Assembly: GCA_016839405.1 (NCBI GenBank)
Contig: JAEOUJ010000347.1
Location: 1 to 19,702, forward strand
DNA length: 19,702 nt
Reading direction: 5' to 3'
Source of the DNA: Candidatus Gerdarchaeota archaeon
Lineage (GTDB): Archaea; Asgardarchaeota; Heimdallarchaeia; JABLTI01
The notes below the pieces were generated by a model, which was given only the letters and a program-made list of their open reading frames with translations, made no database searches and was not told the origin of the DNA. The translations under genes and the position numbers were made by a program. This document shows, piece by piece, positions 1,346 through 10,808 of the stretch; the stretch's first letter is position 1, and each line of letters starts with the position of its first letter.

Positions 1346-1491
1346 TTTCTCCCAACCTAAAATACATTATTTTAATTGTATGTTATTTTTTTCTGAAAAA
1401 GTTTTCTTTCATGTTAAAATTAAATGAATATATTTTTACTCGAGCAAATCTTAAATTAATGAAAAATAATCAATTAAAAGAGGGATTTCTA
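1346..1491. promoter_or_regulatory. Divergent promoter region between the LVIVD gene and aclBA
   Basis: This AT-rich gap separates two divergent genes, so both promoters should lie in it. For acl, an AATATATTTTT stretch near 1428-1438 is a TATA-like candidate, and AAAGAGGGA at 1477-1485 is a good ribosome site 6 bases before the ATG at 1492. An earlier in-frame ATG at 1411 exists, but it has no ribosome site and the residues it adds do not match the family. The TATA assignment is only suggestive in DNA this AT-rich. Confidence 0.4.
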
Positions 1492-2778
1492 ATGAAACTT
1501 TATGAGCATGAAGCAAAAAAAATATTCAGGCAAAATGGCATAACAATTCCAAAACAATATGGTATAATTAAATCAATAGATAAGATAGAGCAATTGCAGC
1601 TACAATTTCCATCAATGGTTAAAGCTTCAGTTCTTGTTGGAGGTAGAGGGAAAGCTGGTGGCGTTAAAAAAGCAAGAAATTTGGATGAAGCTAATAGATT
1701 TGCATCTGATTTACTTAAATTAGTAATAAAAGATTATCCTGTTGAGATTGTTTTTTTTGAAGAAGCAGTTGAAGAAATTAAAGCAATTTATCTTGGAGTT
1801 ACAATGGAACCTAAATCATTTAATAATATGATAATTGCAAGTCCTTTTGGGGGAGTTGATATAGAAGAAGTAGCAACTAAACAACCTGAATTAATTTTTA
1901 AACAGGAACTACAAAACAATGAGAAAGAATTACCTAAGATAATTTCAGAAGAATTAGCAGATAAATTAAATCAAAAATTAAAATTAAAGGATGATTTAAA
2001 AAATAAATTAGTGCAAATAATCATTAATCTCTATAATCTTTATCAAAAAATTGATGCACGATTATGTGAAATTAATCCACTAATTATAACAGATGATGAT
2101 ATAGTAGCAGCTGATGCTAAAATTGTTCTAGATGATAATGGCTTATATCGTCAAGGAAAACTTCTTGAAAGTATTGACATGACTCATAAAAGGCATGATG
2201 TAGCTGAACCAACACCTAATGAAATAAGATCTTATGAGAATGAATTTCCATATGTAGATTTATTGCCATATAATCCTTCAAAAGATAAAGAAAAATTATA
2301 TGTGGGTTTGGTTCCTGGTGGTGCTGGTTATGGGATTTTATCTATTGATGAGGTTGCTAATATTGGCAATCAATTTTTTGATGGAAAAGTTATTCCAATT
2401 AATTTTATGGATAGTGGAGGAGGTCCACCAATAGATGGAGTCGCTGAAATGTTTCACTTGTTAATGGATTATACACTTGTTGATATGATTATAACTTCTA
2501 GATTTGGTGGAATTTCAAGCTGTGATATTTTTATTAGAGGATTGGTTCTAGCATTCAGAGAGAGATATAAGAAAAAGCAAAGAATCATACCCGTGATTGG
2601 TAGAATGGTTGGAACAGATTTACCTTCTGCAAAGAAATATCTCGAGCAAGCTATCCAAGAAACACCAGACGCTCTAAAGCTTATGAGTATTGAGGTTGGA
2701 AATGAACGGATTATGGCAGATGTTATAAAAGATGCACTGACTAAAGGATTTGAACTACGTGAGGAGGGATTGATATGA
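1492..2778 (+). CDS. aclB: ATP-citrate lyase small (ATP-grasp, beta) subunit
   Basis: A 428-residue protein related to the beta subunit of succinyl-CoA synthetase and to the N-terminal part of eukaryotic ATP-citrate lyase. Residues 1-~215 are the ATP-grasp domain: the opening MKLYEHEAKKIF is typical, the glycine-rich nucleotide loop is VLVGGRGKAGGVKKA (48-62), and the metal/ATP site is in CEINPL (192-197). Residues ~265-428 are the CoA-ligase-like/citrate-binding part, with LVPGGAGYGILS (273-284) and NFMDSGGGP (304-312). The length is near the ~400 residues of Chlorobium-type AclB. The start at 1492 is chosen because the family begins there and AAAGAGGGA lies just upstream. It overlaps the next gene by 4 bases (ATGA), so the two subunits are translationally coupled. 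Together they cleave citrate with ATP and CoA into acetyl-CoA and oxaloacetate in the cytoplasm. Confidence 0.88.
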   Translation: MKLYEHEAKKIFRQNGITIPKQYGIIKSIDKIEQLQLQFPSMVKASVLVGGRGKAGGVKKARNLDEANRFASDLLKLVIKDYPVEIVFFEEAVEEIKAIYLGVTMEPKSFNNMIIASPFGGVDIEEVATKQPELIFKQELQNNEKELPKIISEELADKLNQKLKLKDDLKNKLVQIIINLYNLYQKIDARLCEINPLIITDDDIVAADAKIVLDDNGLYRQGKLLESIDMTHKRHDVAEPTPNEIRSYENEFPYVDLLPYNPSKDKEKLYVGLVPGGAGYGILSIDEVANIGNQFFDGKVIPINFMDSGGGPPIDGVAEMFHLLMDYTLVDMIITSRFGGISSCDIFIRGLVLAFRERYKKKQRIIPVIGRMVGTDLPSAKKYLEQAIQETPDALKLMSIEVGNERIMADVIKDALTKGFELREEGLI

Positions 2779-4892
2779 AACGAGTGCTAGTCGATCAAGG
2801 AATGCTATATTATTTAATAGAACAATTAAAACCTGATTTAGCTAACCATATTAAAAAAACCAATGAAATTGATACTGTCATTATTGGATTAGGAAGACAA
2901 GGGATGAAACATGCTGGATTAATGAAGGATTTTGGTACAAAAATAACAGCAGGGATTTCAGTGGGTAGAGGAGGAACAAGAGTTCATGAAATCATCCCAG
3001 TTTATGAAACAATTGCAGAATGCTTGAAAGAACACCCAAACATAGCTATAGCAAGTATTTGGAAACATTATTCTGCAGTAAAGGATACCGCTATAGAGGT
3101 AATTGAGGCAGGAATTCCTATTGTAGTTTTAATAAGTGAATTTATTCCTTTAAAAGATGTTAGGGATATAATAATAGCAGCAAGAAAACACAAAACAATA
3201 CTTTTTGGAGGAAATACTCCAGGAATCATCTTTCCACCTGAAGGAATAAAGGTTGGAATGTTACCTGATATTTTTTATCCAGAAGAAAAAAATTCAACAG
3301 AATTTGGACCAAAAGGTGTTACAATTATCTCGAGAAGTGGTGCTATATTATATCATATGTCAGATGCATTAGCTAGTGTTGGAATTGCACAAAACGCTGT
3401 TCTAGGTGTAGGTGGTGATGGTGCAATTGGGACACGTTTCATTGATATTGTTCCTTTGATTCAAAAATATCAAAATACAGACTTAATCGTAATAGCAGGT
3501 GAAATAGGTGGATGTCAAGAAGAAATTCTAGCTGAAGATATCACAAAACATCCTGAGAAATATCCAAAACCAATGGTTGCAATGATCTCTGGTGCTAATG
3601 CTCCTGAAGGAAAAACTATGGGGCATGCCGGTGCTATTGTTACTCCGGAGCAAGAATATGGTACTTTTAAATCTAAAAAAGCTGCTTTTGAAAAAGCTGG
3701 AATTCCAGTTGTTAATGGGCAATTTGGTTTAATTGAAGAAGCTAGAAGGATATTAAATAATAAACAATATTTCCCAATTGAAAGCTATAAAGAGAAAATG
3801 CGTTTAACTTGGGAAGAACCACCTCAAAAACCTGAATGGGCAACACTGATAACGAAAATTGAGCCAAATAATATTATAATATCGGGTGTTCCATTACAAG
3901 ATATTATTAGGGATAAATCTCTTTTAGAAACAACCTACTTACTACTTAAAGGAAAATTTCCTTCAAAAGATGAATTAATTAACCTTGAGAAAATTGCTCT
4001 TAATGCTGTTAAACTACCAATTCCAAAAATTAAACCAATCAAAGATGAGGATATAGCTAAAACAATTGTTAAATATCTGCTTCTTGATGAAGAATTATCA
4101 CAATTTGCACAACAAGGTTTGAAATCATCACTTGAAATTACGACTTTCAATGTTGGACGGTTTGCTAGGTACCTTGCATCAATTTTAGGAAATGAAAAAG
4201 CACTAAATGTTTCTTCAAATAATAGTTTTAATCAGATAATTGGTCAAGCTTTACTTGGAGAATCAAAGCTTGATAAAGAAAAAACAGAATTACTTGAAGC
4301 TATGATAGTTGCTAGTGTTGATCATGGAGTAACACCTCCTTCTACACAATCAACGATAATTGCTGCATCGGTAAGAGCACCTTATGAAGTAGCAATTGCT
4401 CAAGGTGTTGGTGCAATTACTGATGTGCATGGAGGAGCTGGCACAAAAGCCACTCAATTTTTCAAAATTTGTGTAAAAACTGCTCATGAGCAAAAAATTT
4501 CTTTGATGGATGCTACTCAAAAAATAATTACTGATTATATTCAAAAAGGTTTGAGAATTCAAGGTTTAGGACATAGAATACACACAAATGATCCAAGAAG
4601 AGATGTTTTATGGGACAAAGCTAAAAAAGCTGGCGTTGTTGGTAATTGTATTGATATTTCTAAAGAAATTACAGAGATTTTCAAACAAGTTAGAGGAATA
4701 ACTTTACCAATAAATGTTGATGGAGTAATTGGAGCAATAATTGCTGAATTAGATGTTAATCCAATCATTTCAAAAGCAGTTTTCATATATGGTAGAATGA
4801 TTGGTTTATCCGCTCATTATTATGAAGAGATAATTTCCCAACCAGAAATGCGTAGAATTAATTTTAATGAAGCAGTATACAAAGGAAAATAA
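2775..4892 (+). CDS. aclA: ATP-citrate lyase large subunit (CoA-ligase alpha plus citryl-CoA lyase domain)
   Basis: A 705-residue fusion. Residues ~32-345 are the CoA-ligase alpha part: a Rossmann start (DTVIIGLGRQG), IISRSGA, GVGGDGAIGTRF, and the phospho-histidine loop GKTMGHAGAIVTPE with His284. Residues ~365-705 are a citrate-synthase-like lyase domain: GVPLQDIIRDKSLLETTYLLLKG opens it, and candidate catalytic residues are His517 (DHGVTPPS), His552 (VHGGAG), His600 (GLGHRIH) and Asp649 (NVDGVIGA). The ribosome site GAGGAGGGA lies inside the end of aclB. Gene order aclB-aclA matches Chlorobium. The protein is about 95 residues longer than the roughly 610-residue bacterial subunit. The extra length falls between the helix ending KGKFPSKDEL (~402) and LLEAMIVASVDHG (~507). 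The complex makes acetyl-CoA for a reductive TCA cycle or for biosynthesis; which of these cannot be told here. Confidence 0.87.
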   Translation: MKRVLVDQGMLYYLIEQLKPDLANHIKKTNEIDTVIIGLGRQGMKHAGLMKDFGTKITAGISVGRGGTRVHEIIPVYETIAECLKEHPNIAIASIWKHYSAVKDTAIEVIEAGIPIVVLISEFIPLKDVRDIIIAARKHKTILFGGNTPGIIFPPEGIKVGMLPDIFYPEEKNSTEFGPKGVTIISRSGAILYHMSDALASVGIAQNAVLGVGGDGAIGTRFIDIVPLIQKYQNTDLIVIAGEIGGCQEEILAEDITKHPEKYPKPMVAMISGANAPEGKTMGHAGAIVTPEQEYGTFKSKKAAFEKAGIPVVNGQFGLIEEARRILNNKQYFPIESYKEKMRLTWEEPPQKPEWATLITKIEPNNIIISGVPLQDIIRDKSLLETTYLLLKGKFPSKDELINLEKIALNAVKLPIPKIKPIKDEDIAKTIVKYLLLDEELSQFAQQGLKSSLEITTFNVGRFARYLASILGNEKALNVSSNNSFNQIIGQALLGESKLDKEKTELLEAMIVASVDHGVTPPSTQSTIIAASVRAPYEVAIAQGVGAITDVHGGAGTKATQFFKICVKTAHEQKISLMDATQKIITDYIQKGLRIQGLGHRIHTNDPRRDVLWDKAKKAGVVGNCIDISKEITEIFKQVRGITLPINVDGVIGAIIAELDVNPIISKAVFIYGRMIGLSAHYYEEIISQPEMRRINFNEAVYKGK

Positions 4893-7195: not shown

Positions 7196-7227
7196 AAAGA
7201 AAAAGAGATAAAAACCAATTTTATCTC
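7196..7227 (-). terminator. Stem-loop with U-tract ending the clostripain transcript
   Basis: On the minus strand, GAGATAAAA and TTTTATCTC form a perfect 9-bp stem with a 5-base loop (arms 7227-7219 and 7213-7205), followed at once by a run of T with one C. The stem starts inside the clostripain stop codon. This is a classic stem plus U-tract and should separate clostripain from the M1 gene. Confidence 0.65.
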
Positions 7228-9187
7228 ATTGATTTTTTATCTTCTTATTTCGCCTTAACCCAGTAATAATTACAATTGTCGATAAAGCAACAAGGATAAC
7301 TAGATTAGATTTGTTTAAACCAATAAATCCAGTAGGTTTATTTGGAGGTACTAATTCTTTCCAATCTGTCAATTGATCATCATTTGTTACATTAATGCTT
7401 AGAACTTGACCTAGACCAATATCGCTTGTTTTTGTTTCTTCCCAAATTACTTCATTATCTAATACATGTTGAATTGTTAAATTGACATCTTGAGTAGCAC
7501 TAGCAGCTATAGAAGCATTTACCACAATTGAAAATGCTTGATTATTGTTCTTAACATTAACTGGAATACTAGCTGCAGGAATTCTAATTGTACAAGTCCC
7601 AAGAAGCATATCTTCCACAAAACTAGCTCCAGGAATCTCTATTTCTATACCCATGTTATCATGGATAAAGCTAGGTTTAGTATGTCCAATGTGTAATGGA
7701 CCACCATCGATTCTATCCATATAAATATGCATATTTATTGTTGGATCTATTGGCCCAAAATGAATTTGATATAATTCTGGTAGATCGAAATGATCAAATA
7801 TAAAAGTGTCAATTGGTGGATAAAGACTGAAAATAAAATTATCCCAACATGTATCAACAGAAATATCTAAATCTTGATAGAAATTAGGATAAAGATACTC
7901 CTGATACATAAAAATAGTGTCAGGGAAACAAATGCTAAAACCAGTTAAATTATAATGAGTATAAAAATAAGCAACATAGTTATCCCGTATTAATTTATTT
8001 ATTCCTGGCACTAATCTACCTAGCAACGATACTGCATGTTGTTCAATATTAGCTGCATTGTTAAATTCAGTTATTCTATCTAAACACTTTTGTATAAATG
8101 TACCAAGATCGATCATCATTGTATTTGTTTTATACAACCAATAATCATATACAAATTCGCTTCTCATTTCACCGAATATTTTTTGTGCATGAGTTTTATT
8201 TATCGTTATTTCTTGACACAATGCTTCCGTAAATAATTCAAATTCATATGCAAATGTATTCCCACCTAGTGGTGGTATTGCATGGAATTTAGTTAAATCG
8301 TATATATTGATATCTCTCCAACTATAAATTCCTGAATAATGCACCGGACTAACTCCACTTTGAAAACCATAATCAGCTAAAGTATAAGGATCAGCAGCAG
8401 TATACCCACTAAGATCCCATAAAATGTCTCGAGGATGATATAATACCTCTAAAGGTTGTGATGATTGAGCTGCTACTACATAATGAACATCACCTGCTAA
8501 TTGCCACATAACCTCAAATGAACCTGCTAAACAAGTATCAAAGAATAATACATCCACTCCACCAGAATTTTCTATCGCTGTATCTAATTCTTCAACAGTT
8601 AAGCAATCACCAAGAGCATAAGGCCAATACGGATGTGGAGCATGATAATCATAACAGAATCCTGCATACCCACGACCGTGATCGGATAATAATAAAGCAT
8701 AGTTATCTGCAGGATAAAACACTTTACAATAATCTATGAAACCTTGTAAAGTGGCTGGATCTCCCATATTTGTTTCCCCATATTCATAAAGAGTTATAAG
8801 ATTTCCATGTTGCAATTCGTACATTTTTGCATTACCTTTAGGGTGACCAGGATAATACGGATGATCAAATAATGCAATAACATTTAGATTTGTTTGAAAA
8901 CCCACTTGAAGGTATGGTCCGCCATGGTCTGTTTTATACAGTGAATTAATAGTTTCTAACATTACTCGACCTAAATCATTTCCAGAGTTATCTAAACTTC
9001 CACCAACATAATCATCTCGAGTATCTGCACAGAAATATATCATAAATGTCCAATTTTTTATTGCTTTTGATTTATCATTTTTAAATTGCTTATTATTGTT
9101 GATAGAATTGGTGTCATTTATTCGAATGGAAAATAATATTAAAGATACAAAAATTAGCACAAATATTTTAGATTTATTTTTTGTCAT
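7226..9187 (-). CDS. Secreted, membrane-anchored clostripain-type cysteine protease (family C11)
   Basis: A 653-residue protein. Residues ~8-21 are a hydrophobic signal segment. The C11 domain spans ~45-470 with the opening NWTFMIYFCADT, the catalytic histidine in LLLSDHGRGYAG (His170) and the catalytic cysteine in LFFDTCLAGSFE (Cys219), in the usual His-then-Cys order. VVAAQSSQP after the cysteine is also typical. Residues ~490-610 are a beta-rich, Ig-like region. Residues ~629-645 are a hydrophobic helix followed by the basic tail RRNKKIKNQ, so the enzyme should face outward on a single anchor. The ATG has GAGGGAG 5 bases upstream. Many C11 enzymes cut after Arg and mature by self-cleavage. 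The gene lies directly downstream of two micro-genes whose peptides carry an Arg before a conserved core, making them candidate substrates (inference). Confidence 0.87.
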   Translation of the reverse strand: MTKNKSKIFVLIFVSLILFSIRINDTNSINNNKQFKNDKSKAIKNWTFMIYFCADTRDDYVGGSLDNSGNDLGRVMLETINSLYKTDHGGPYLQVGFQTNLNVIALFDHPYYPGHPKGNAKMYELQHGNLITLYEYGETNMGDPATLQGFIDYCKVFYPADNYALLLSDHGRGYAGFCYDYHAPHPYWPYALGDCLTVEELDTAIENSGGVDVLFFDTCLAGSFEVMWQLAGDVHYVVAAQSSQPLEVLYHPRDILWDLSGYTAADPYTLADYGFQSGVSPVHYSGIYSWRDINIYDLTKFHAIPPLGGNTFAYEFELFTEALCQEITINKTHAQKIFGEMRSEFVYDYWLYKTNTMMIDLGTFIQKCLDRITEFNNAANIEQHAVSLLGRLVPGINKLIRDNYVAYFYTHYNLTGFSICFPDTIFMYQEYLYPNFYQDLDISVDTCWDNFIFSLYPPIDTFIFDHFDLPELYQIHFGPIDPTINMHIYMDRIDGGPLHIGHTKPSFIHDNMGIEIEIPGASFVEDMLLGTCTIRIPAASIPVNVKNNNQAFSIVVNASIAASATQDVNLTIQHVLDNEVIWEETKTSDIGLGQVLSINVTNDDQLTDWKELVPPNKPTGFIGLNKSNLVILVALSTIVIITGLRRNKKIKNQ

Positions 9188-9302: not shown

Positions 9303-9420
9303 TACATAAAAAAAGCCAGAATAAAATTAGTATTCAAGAATAATTCTTGAATTATTCATCCACCCATCTGAAATACAGATTATTGACCTGTCATTAGAGC
9401 AAATTTTATTCTAGCTTTTT
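9303..9420 (-). promoter_or_regulatory. Candidate translation-coupled attenuator between micropeptide 1 and clostripain
   Basis: Arms 9420-9402 and 9328-9310 pair over 19 bp in the minus-strand RNA with one U-G wobble. The plus-strand RNA would have a C-A mismatch there, so the minus RNA folds better. The 5' arm is coding sequence of micropeptide 1 (AAAAAGCTAGAATAAAATT), and the 3' arm runs straight into seven T. The 73-base interval holds two more hairpins: a 5-bp one (9380-9376 with 9370-9366) and a perfect 10-bp one (9352-9343 with 9341-9332). A ribosome finishing the peptide would cover the 5' arm, stop the outer stem forming and allow read-through into clostripain. That mechanism is inference; the pairing is seen. 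It may instead be a plain terminator. Confidence 0.55.
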
Positions 9421-9463
9421 CCAATGATTTTTTGACTTGTTTTTTTAATTCTTTGTTTGTCAT
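9380..9463 (-). CDS. Micropeptide 1 (27 aa, C-terminal core RIKFALMTG)
   Basis: A 28-codon reading frame with ATG, TAA, and AGGTGA ending 6 bases before the ATG. The product has a basic, Lys-rich N-terminal half (begins MTNKELKKQVKK) and a hydrophobic C-terminus (RIKFALMTGQ). A second micro-gene 81 bases upstream encodes the same nine-residue core. Over those nine codons the two differ at four positions, all synonymous (ATA/ATT, TTT/TTC, CTA/TTA, ACA/ACT), which argues that the peptide itself is selected. It has no signal peptide or membrane segment, and I recognise no family. Possible roles are a signalling or RiPP-like precursor, a protease substrate, or a leader peptide whose translation controls the clostripain gene downstream. 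The existence of the gene is well supported; its function is unknown. Confidence 0.72.
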   Translation of the reverse strand: MTNKELKKQVKKSLEKARIKFALMTGQ

Positions 9464-9500
9464 TTTTCTTCACCTTTTTTTCAGTTAAGATATATTATAT

Positions 9501-9540
9501 CTGGTCACTCTATAAGTTCCATTTGGAACTTTCTGACCAG
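9501..9540 (-). promoter_or_regulatory. Two-tier RNA hairpin after micropeptide 2
   Basis: The minus strand reads CTGGTCA, GA, AAGTTCC, AAAT, GGAACTT, ATAGAG, TGACCAG. Both 7-bp stems are perfect, so the hairpin is stable despite the AT-rich setting. The internal loop, with GA on one strand and AUA-GA-G on the other, resembles a kink-turn (three-base bulge, then tandem G-A pairs) with one extra G. It starts 4 bases after the micropeptide 2 stop. No U-tract follows, so it is more likely a regulatory, stabilising or L7Ae-type protein-binding element than a terminator. Confidence 0.55.
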
Positions 9541-9544
9541 CTCC

Positions 9545-9634
9545 TTAAGCACCAGTCATTAAAGCGAATTTAATTCTGGTTAATTCATAATCTTTGCCGA
9601 TTTTTTGTTTGATTTTTTGTCTTTTATCAGTCAT
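9545..9634 (-). CDS. Micropeptide 2 (29 aa, C-terminal core RIKFALMTG)
   Basis: A 30-codon reading frame with ATG, TAA, and a GGAG ribosome site 10 bases upstream. Like micropeptide 1, it has a Lys/Arg-rich start (MTDKRQKIKQKIGK) and ends in the shared core, here TRIKFALMTGA. The N-terminal halves differ in sequence but keep length and charge, as in leader-plus-core peptide pairs. It is the first gene after a TATA-like element at 9682-9690, so the order is promoter, micropeptide 2, hairpin, micropeptide 1, attenuator-like stem, clostripain. There is no recognisable family and no cysteine. It could be a precursor cut after the Arg before IKFALMTG, or a regulatory leader. The tandem duplication with synonymous drift is the main support. 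Confidence 0.72.
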   Translation of the reverse strand: MTDKRQKIKQKIGKDYELTRIKFALMTGA

Positions 9635-9659: not shown

Positions 9660-9749
9660 TTGATTAACATAACTCACAATCATATATAAAGCGGATTCAC
9701 TTTTTAGAGACTCAAAAATAAGACTCAATTAGAGGTCACAATTTGTGAC
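9660..9749 (-). promoter_or_regulatory. Promoter and operator region of the micropeptide-clostripain unit
   Basis: On the minus strand CTTTATATAT (9691-9682), preceded by CCG, fits a TATA box with a purine/GC-containing BRE-like flank. A start about 25 bases downstream (~9660) would leave a short leader carrying GGAG. Upstream are two exact copies of AGACTCAA on the plus strand (9708-9715, 9721-9728; 13-base period) and a 15-base palindrome GTCACAA-T-TTGTGAC (9735-9749). This arrangement suggests a regulated promoter. The winged-helix gene ending at 9762 is the obvious candidate regulator, which is inference. Confidence 0.5.
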
Positions 9750-9761
9750 TAAAGTCATATT

Positions 9762-10808
9762 CTAAATAACAAGAAGACCTTGTGGTCCTTCATAGTAAAT
9801 AATAATAGCACCGTATTTCTCTGGAGGCATTTTAATTATCTTTTCATCTACTAGAAAATCTATAGCCCAAGCATATGCTAAATGTATATACCAACAAATA
9901 AATTCTCCTAGACTATTATGAGTATATTTACTTGTATATAGTGTATTATAAAATTCTAGAATCATATCTTCTTTTTCTTTTATTTTTATTAATATTTTAT
10001 TTGATATTCTATTACAAAGCTCTCTCCAAGCAAGAGAATCTTCTTCAGAAATTATTGGAACATTAAGTTTATTTGCTAATTCATCAGGATTTGATAATTT
10101 TTCTTTCTCTAGTATATTTGAACATTTTTCCTCAAGTTTTCCTCTAGGGACATTATATTTACCATCAATGATATTTTTTCCAAAAGTAATGAAAGTCCAA
10201 TTTTCCCAAGGTAAATCTTTTGAATCTTCTCCATACTTACCATGATATTCCATAGGGCCCTCGATCATATAGAAATAATATTGTGCATCAGATCTATCTG
10301 GGCTAGGTCGTTTTGGAGCTGGTTTTAATAATGATCTATCTTTAACAAATGCTTCAAGTAATGCTATATCTAATAATTTTGATCCAATTAAAGTAAGTGA
10401 AAGATCTTCAATAGAATACTCCTGACTTATGCTAAGTTTACTATATTCACTTTTAATTTCCTTCCAATGTCTTTTTAATTCGTCAGAAATAATTCTCCCA
10501 ATTTCCTTCGAATGATTATATGTTTTTTCAGTTTCTTCTTCATTTACTATTAGAAAGGTTGGAAAATAATTATCATTCTCCTTTCTCAAAAGATTAGCAT
10601 TAATAAGAAGTTTTACTTTCTCAAGTAGTTCTTCTTCTGTAATTTCTAACATTATTCTTATTTCTTCAATTGAAAATCCATCATGCAATGCTCTAAGAGT
10701 TATTTTGCTAGAAGGTTTGAAGTAATCCCATGGATTGCCAGATCCTGCCATAGATAGACTAATTTTTCTATTAGCATACTCTTCTGGTAATTTTACCACA
10801 TATTCCAC
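9762..10808 (-). CDS. Winged-helix domain protein of unknown function, candidate regulator
   Basis: A 348-residue soluble protein. Residues ~33-88 look like a winged helix: SKITLRALHDG as the first helix, SIEEIRIML, a recognition helix TEEELLEKVKLLINANLLR and a beta wing NYFPTFLIV. This resembles ArsR/MarR-like DNA-binding domains. The remaining ~260 residues are mostly helical, with a mixed segment at ~175-215 (QYYFYMIEGPMEYHG and WENWTFITFGKN) and a strand-like C-terminus (GAIIIYYEGPQG). I do not recognise this part; it could be a ligand- or peptide-sensing domain. The start is GTG at 10808 without a strong ribosome site; ATG at residue 20 is a weaker alternative because it would cut into the region before the domain. 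It lies 127 bases upstream of micropeptide 2, on the same strand. Confidence 0.6.
   Translation of the reverse strand: MEYVVKLPEEYANRKISLSMAGSGNPWDYFKPSSKITLRALHDGFSIEEIRIMLEITEEELLEKVKLLINANLLRKENDNYFPTFLIVNEEETEKTYNHSKEIGRIISDELKRHWKEIKSEYSKLSISQEYSIEDLSLTLIGSKLLDIALLEAFVKDRSLLKPAPKRPSPDRSDAQYYFYMIEGPMEYHGKYGEDSKDLPWENWTFITFGKNIIDGKYNVPRGKLEEKCSNILEKEKLSNPDELANKLNVPIISEEDSLAWRELCNRISNKILIKIKEKEDMILEFYNTLYTSKYTHNSLGEFICWYIHLAYAWAIDFLVDEKIIKMPPEKYGAIIIYYEGPQGLLVI

Follow-up and report, generated by a model that had tools for sequence, protein, structure and literature searches.

We found that two very short tandem genes, P1 and P2, are members of a cationic micropeptide gene family that is lineage-specific and under coding selection. 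Both lie on the minus strand of the window, by which we mean the whole stretch of DNA that was analysed (19,702 nucleotides). P1, the first cistron (9545-9634, minus strand), encodes 29 residues (MTDKRQKIKQKIGKDYELTRIKFALMTGA, then stop) and P2, the second cistron (9380-9463, minus strand), encodes 27 (MTNKELKKQVKKSLEKARIKFALMTGQ, then stop); both are recognised by their frames and by homologues in relatives. Each is preceded by a ribosome site read from the sequence, GGAG for P1 (9645-9648, minus strand) and AGGTGA for P2 (9470-9475, minus strand), and a gap of 81 bases (9464-9544) separates the two frames. The original prediction had described this arrangement exactly to the base. It had also reported four base differences, all synonymous, across the nine codons common to P1 and P2, and reading the window sequence confirmed this (ATT/ATA, TTC/TTT, TTA/CTA and ACT/ACA). 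With up to three mismatches, the degenerate core pattern occurs at only two places in the window, P1 and P2, and two such matches were found in none of 200 dinucleotide shuffles of the window.

Several elements around the pair go beyond what had been predicted. Upstream lie a perfect operator-like palindrome, GTCACAAATTGTGAC (9735-9749, strand not applicable), which is also present at other loci, and a TATA-like promoter region, AAAAAGTGAATCCGCTTTATATA (9683-9705, minus strand), which is identical at eight places in the genomes of the order. Between the genes there is a hairpin, CTGGTCA...TGACCAG (9501-9540, minus strand), that is absent from two loci of the same tandem type (type A, below; L058 and L059). 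A 19-nt inverted repeat connects core codons of P2 (9402-9420, minus strand), the 5' arm of a terminator-like stem, with a U-tailed arm at 9310-9328; the two are complementary at 18 of 19 positions, and the remaining position is a G-U pair in RNA. The loop of this stem holds a hairpin of its own (ATTCAAGAAT/ATTCTTGAAT; 9332-9352, minus strand), and the 3' anti-core arm, AATTTTATTCTGGC, is followed by seven U and would form a terminator-like transcript end (9308-9328, minus strand). No Rfam family matched the window at gathering scores.

To describe the family, we built a profile from 22 peptides (A2) and then one from 47 (A3), and ran both over 227 genomes of the Asgard phylum. A3 gave 60 strong matches (E<=1e-8), one of them with an in-frame stop, and all fall in the nine genomes of one order, to which genome G003 (below) belongs. 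At E<=0.05 the number of matches in these nine genomes rises to 67, with 2-14 per genome and all nine genomes positive. In the 218 other genomes of the phylum no A3 match fell below E=0.0072, and the seven genomes with a marginal match had it mostly within long frames. Members are 27-33 residues long, carry a net charge of +4 to +10 and consist of a Lys-rich front followed by the core, R-[MI]-[KR]-[FMY]-A-L-x-x-G-x-stop; the full consensus is K-x-x-[IL]-K-x-x-[IV]-[KR]-[KQ]-[DE]-x-E-x-[AT]-R-[MI]-[KR]-[FMY]-A-L-x-x-G-x-stop. The core Arg is present in all 47 rows of A3 and the Gly in 46, and 41 rows have a single residue after the last Gly.

The suggestion that the pair represents a new class of archaeal small peptide thus holds, for a family larger than proposed. 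The original prediction recognised no known family, and this agrees with our searches: Pfam gave just four families for the 22 A2 members, each in one or two members and with a best E of 0.022; NCBIfam had no match for P1 or P2; and the PDB returned none at E<=10. Six matches to the core pattern in viral contigs are, by their reading frames, apparently due to chance or located inside longer frames. FALMTG resembles box I of tyrosine recombinases, a reading that we rejected because the members stop at the core and each is served by its own ribosome site. Among the open-access papers listed, no title or abstract opening describes the micropeptide family, and RIKFALMTG gave no paper. Micropeptides as such are well known; we rate this family as new in kind because none of the known systems agrees with it in every defining feature.

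The tandem arrangement with conserved core and ribosome sites recurs, as had been anticipated, at seven like loci and in other tandem types. A near-copy of the P1/P2 unit was found in genome G003 by a whole-genome search of the seven genomes that encode relatives of the 348-residue protein next to the pair (below), and its order is that of the window (palindrome, promoter, P1, hairpin, P2, hairpin and U-tailed arm). In all, this P1-P2 tandem (type A) occupies seven genomic loci in six genomes, with two in G059. Six of the seven are followed by a convergent adenosine-specific-kinase-like gene (assigned by Pfam PF04008 for the one tested and by like translations for the others) and have a HEAT-like gene upstream, with a 98-residue divergent frame in between at L045 and L048; the HEAT assignment comes from Pfam on the counterpart at L098 only. 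L098, in G058, is a divergent eighth A-like unit with the same neighbours, in which the core of the first peptide has decayed. At L049 the next gene is a different convergent gene, and the window has other neighbours again. Because the neighbours differ between L049, the window and the six kinase-flanked loci, type A is a stand-alone unit and not part of the adjoining genes of the window.

These adjoining genes encode a 348-residue protein (9762-10808, minus strand) and, downstream of the pair, a clostripain-family (C11) peptidase (7226-9187, minus strand). The 348-residue protein is without a Pfam match and has 38 relatives. Four of these are named by organism, as Asgard group archaeon or as Candidatus Heimdallarchaeota. 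When one genome of each species was scanned, seven loci of the protein were found. We rejected synteny with the pair, since the relatives at L007-L013 are without it in the stretch examined. One of them, L008, is labelled Candidatus Bathyarchaeota and is 65% identical to the Asgard protein, and is possibly mislabelled or mixed. The peptidase gene has, by eye, its own TATA-like and ribosome-site-like sequences. A role of P1/P2 as its leader was likewise rejected, since the unit elsewhere precedes convergent genes and the terminator-like stem intervenes. Further away, at 1411-4892 on the plus strand, the window encodes an ATP-grasp protein and then a 705-residue protein with CoA-ligase and citrate-synthase domains, an ATP-citrate-lyase-like pair.

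The remaining loci fall into several types. Type F is also a tandem pair; L094, L097, L106 and L127 lie near SRP19, a gene with weak likeness to Gar1 and, in convergent orientation, an NAD-kinase-like gene, these families having been tested on L094 only and the Gar1 scores being below curated cut-offs. Type H is a tandem in which the first core is degenerate (read in L124), type G has a coreless Lys-rich frame upstream, and types B and I have, as far as read, a single peptide. In type C, the core-bearing peptide comes after one or two further short frames rich in Lys. L046, L047 and L057 are of this type, and at some loci three micropeptide genes form an array; at L057 (G001:C258) a 33-residue frame ending in KVKIILTMFYSDGLI and a 24-residue frame come before the core-bearing peptide, whose core codons contain an in-frame TAA, the copy being either decayed or misassembled. 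The micropeptide is the first cistron in types D, E and J, ahead of a coiled-coil/ArsR-like HTH gene, a bactofilin gene, and GNAT or TPR/aspartyl-protease genes, respectively, and its stop lies 15-36 bases before the next start at the nine loci measured. Type K (L151, L153 and L157) is a coreless Lys-rich frame of 32 residues under the type A promoter, with its stop about 200 bases (208 in L151) before a deoxyhypusine synthase gene. No RiPP enzymes were found among the subset of neighbour genes scanned against Pfam.

We then assessed selection on the coding sequence in 25 hand-picked orthologue pairs, some of them from one locus. Pooled, these pairs have 67.7 synonymous differences over 413.8 sites and 69.3 nonsynonymous differences over 1686.2 sites. 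The resulting dN/dS across homologues, the check that the original prediction had called for, is 0.23 and indicates selection on the peptide, with values of 0.14 for the core and 0.32 for the N part. In 20 of the 25 pairs the nonsynonymous rate is the lower one, and in five it is not (synonymous and nonsynonymous differences: A_P1 L056-L053, 0 and 3; F2, 0 and 1; G L108-L111, 0 and 1; H2 L113-L110, 1 and 9; a coreless X pair, 1 and 4). Orthologues also exchange the starts ATG, TTG and GTG and the stops TAA, TAG and TGA.

The inverted repeat of P2 has counterparts elsewhere. In 16 loci (eight type A second cistrons including the window, six of type H and two of type F), the stop of the last micropeptide is followed, no more than 130 bases on, by the motif TTCTNG(Y)T5+, which pairs with the K-A-R-[MI]-K codons of that peptide. 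Pairing was observed in 239 of 288 cells, compared to 221.8 +/- 4.1 with partners dealt anew, a level that none of 2000 such deals reached, with the relatedness of the loci inflating the result. The Ala wobble position shows compensatory changes (C-G in 4 loci, A-U in 7, U-A in 2, U-G in 2 and one mismatch). Tested locus by locus, the pairing is without significance at three of these loci (L045, p 0.13; L118, p 0.14; L114, p 0.31). A terminator pattern allowing two mismatches gave 12 matches in the nine genomes and one control match. Ten of the 12 are at known members, and the other two are L158, where the pattern follows KYMLMAGR, an F-like end at the edge of a contig, and L159 (G061:C106). 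The latter has a family-like frame, IDNKKKIKEQVRKQQ..., that lacks both the core Arg and a stop ahead of the terminator motif, and is apparently a decaying type H copy. These data demonstrate a terminator-like stem nested in micropeptide codons.

Such pairing was the point on which the original prediction could have failed, had the core been kept by RNA structure instead of by its codons. This concern is borne out in part, for P2 and 15 other last-cistron members: because their stem lies in core codons and shows compensatory changes, P2 is constrained at the codon level and by RNA pairing alike. It does not extend to types C, D, E, G and J, and since these keep the peptide without a U-tailed arm, pairing does not explain peptide conservation. 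The arm is also absent from the type F loci L094 and L097, and pairing without a U tract occurs at the type C locus L047 (p 0.01) and at two of four type B loci (L054 and L055). A further reading, in which conservation is that of an RNA or a DNA repeat and the open frames are by-products, is suggested by the same inverted repeat between the P2 core and its 3' end. It is extremely unlikely and largely refuted by the coding signal, given the dN/dS, the interchangeable starts and stops, the ribosome sites, the types that keep the peptide without the arm, and the 12 terminator-pattern matches, each of which follows a frame of the family, intact or as a remnant.

The stem and the position of some members also bear on the idea that the micropeptides are leader peptides, in which the nascent core would stall the ribosome or be sensed in translation and so control the next cistron or termination. 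The first-cistron position in types D, E and J, close ahead of the next gene, would suit this, as would the C-terminal location of the conserved core, mostly one residue from the end, and the stem over core codons in 16 loci; a peptide of 27-33 residues would also fit the ribosome tunnel. However, at all seven genomic type A loci and at the NAD-kinase-flanked type F loci the next gene is convergent and none is co-directional, the N-terminal half is conserved too, and related type D peptides have tails of either one or three residues after the Gly. The leader model covers the nested stem and types D, E and J, and leaves the tandem units that stand alone without an explanation. The regulatory leader that the original prediction had offered as a guess does not fit those units, and we consider it unlikely as an account of the family.

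We next turned to the winged-helix genes found at some loci, using a profile (A4) of 13 winged-helix proteins from micropeptide loci. A4 gave 54 matches in eight of the nine genomes. Of the 26 matches of at least 240 bits, 20 lie within 1.5 kb of a strong family member, and the other six form three pairs that flank Lys-rich frames of 34-36 residues, two at L128 and three at each of L129 and L130; these frames are tandem, coreless and alike in G057, G061 and G062. None of the 28 weaker matches has a strong member nearby, counting strong members only. The palindrome TTCTCAN5-6TGAGAA is present upstream at all nine loci examined (three of type B and six of type H; the fourth type B locus, L054, was left out).

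By analogy with Rgg/SHP or RRNPP layouts, a micropeptide and its neighbouring winged-helix protein might be a cognate signal and regulator. The association with the closest paralogues, the shared palindrome, and a Lys-rich front with a short hydrophobic end are consistent with this, but A4 was built from winged-helix genes beside micropeptides and favours close paralogues of that kind, which biases the association toward such a result. Moreover, the core is near-invariant among paralogues and would thus provide little specificity, and only 18 of the 60 strong members lie within 1.5 kb of a winged-helix gene. This model covers the winged-helix loci and not the other 42 members; we regard it as distinctly improbable for the family as a whole.

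The composition of the peptides raises the question of toxicity. Short, cationic, multicopy and tandem genes with promoters that look regulated, one copy of which in G001 has an in-frame stop, could encode small toxins or antimicrobial peptides of a type I toxin-like or bacteriocin-like kind. Nevertheless, purifying selection acts in most pairs tested, and the alignment columns show no hydrophobic stretch of membrane-spanning length, the hydrophobic run being limited to core positions +3 to +6; such a function is very doubtful. The N part has helical periodicity (p=0.006, one of three stretches tried). We rejected an amphipathic helix along the whole peptide, since the full-length helical moment is not above that of shuffles and the periodicity is found in the N part only.

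A possible link to bactofilin came from the promoter. The 23-base pattern, with up to three mismatches, has 26 matches in the nine genomes, including the eight identical copies, and none in the reversed control. Downstream of these matches are seven type A loci, five F-like, three of type E, three of type K, five direct bactofilin-like genes and three apparent chance matches; 18 of the 26 thus precede micropeptide frames, 15 with the core and the three coreless ones of type K. Of the five direct genes, Pfam identifies three as bactofilin (L155, L156 and L161), as it does the type E genes at L093, L104 and L123; the other two direct genes are bactofilin-like by their N-terminal letters. GTCACAN3TGTGAC, with at most one mismatch, lies ahead of 18 of 27 promoter matches including the window, a raw count that leaves out L163, a chance match also scored. 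The palindrome was not found at L045, L048, L090, L094, L097, L152 and L162. The common promoter type and the adjacency in type E suggest bactofilin, or else the membrane, as the likeliest partner of the peptides.

Taken together, we favour the interpretation that the P1/P2 family are regulated cationic effector peptides that act in trans on a common partner, to which we assign a probability of about 50%. This interpretation is drawn from sequence alone, and the transcripts and peptides are predicted. On sensing a signal at the GTCACA/TGTGAC palindrome, the cell would make P1 and P2. The Lys-rich, helically periodic front would confer general affinity, and the C-terminal R-x-K-F-A-L-x-x-G-x end would dock on the one common partner, for which the bactofilin polymer or the membrane is the likeliest candidate. 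Members beside winged-helix genes may be branches of the family with a local switch of their own. In the least certain step, ribosomes finishing P2 might delay 3'-end formation via the core-codon stem, tying the transcript end to translation. Several observations argue against effector peptides: types D, E and J occupy the position of a leader peptide, 41 of 47 rows end one residue past the Gly, which could equally be the layout of a stop-proximal arrest motif, RNA pairing likewise constrains the P2 core, the helical moment of the full-length peptide does not exceed that of shuffles, bactofilin is linked by promoter type and adjacency only, and five of 25 pairs have no lower nonsynonymous rate.

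A broader proposal, which we put forward as a speculation with the odds clearly against it, is a private multicopy micropeptide code in this Asgard order. If true, modules of a winged-helix regulator and a micropeptide array would be cognate peptide-regulator switches; the type A branch, co-produced with bactofilin cytoskeleton proteins under one operator, would modulate their assembly; and translation of the core would govern the transcript end, the core codons being one arm of the terminator.

Asgard archaea are the group nearest to eukaryotes, and genes of 27-33 codons are at or below the usual size limit of gene finders. Here, a coherent family of tiny genes, with as many as 14 matches in a single genome of the one order, is accompanied by palindromes, promoter types common to several loci, genes for candidate regulators and what may be a connection to a cytoskeletal polymer, and the list of loci is ready for peptidomics and tests of small-protein regulation in Asgard archaea. 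A terminator-like arm nested in conserved peptide codons is unusual.

Among known systems, the micro-proteins of Haloferax volcanii and the small proteins of Methanosarcina mazei are, as far as titles and abstract openings describe them, similar in being very small archaeal proteins, many of them unannotated; those of Haloferax are zinc-finger proteins of fewer than 70 residues, with a Cys motif that the present family does not have. TisB is a type I toxin, and the family resembles it in length and regulated promoter and resembles its class in tandem and multicopy occurrence, but the micropeptides are highly charged and have no membrane-spanning stretch. TnaC and ErmCL are leader peptides of a similar kind, with roughly 20-30 codons, a conserved C-terminal end by the stop and an RNA stem over the end of the frame (here at 16 loci); in contrast to them, the family has stand-alone loci without a co-directional target gene and a conserved N-terminal half. 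Rgg/SHP and RRNPP are peptide-regulator pairs of Gram-positive bacteria. Compared to these, the regulator here is an ArsR-like winged-helix protein, the core is near-fixed and 42 of 60 members are without a regulator within 1.5 kb; as in those systems, short genes with a Lys-rich front and a hydrophobic end lie by a DNA-binding regulator, with several such pairs per genome.
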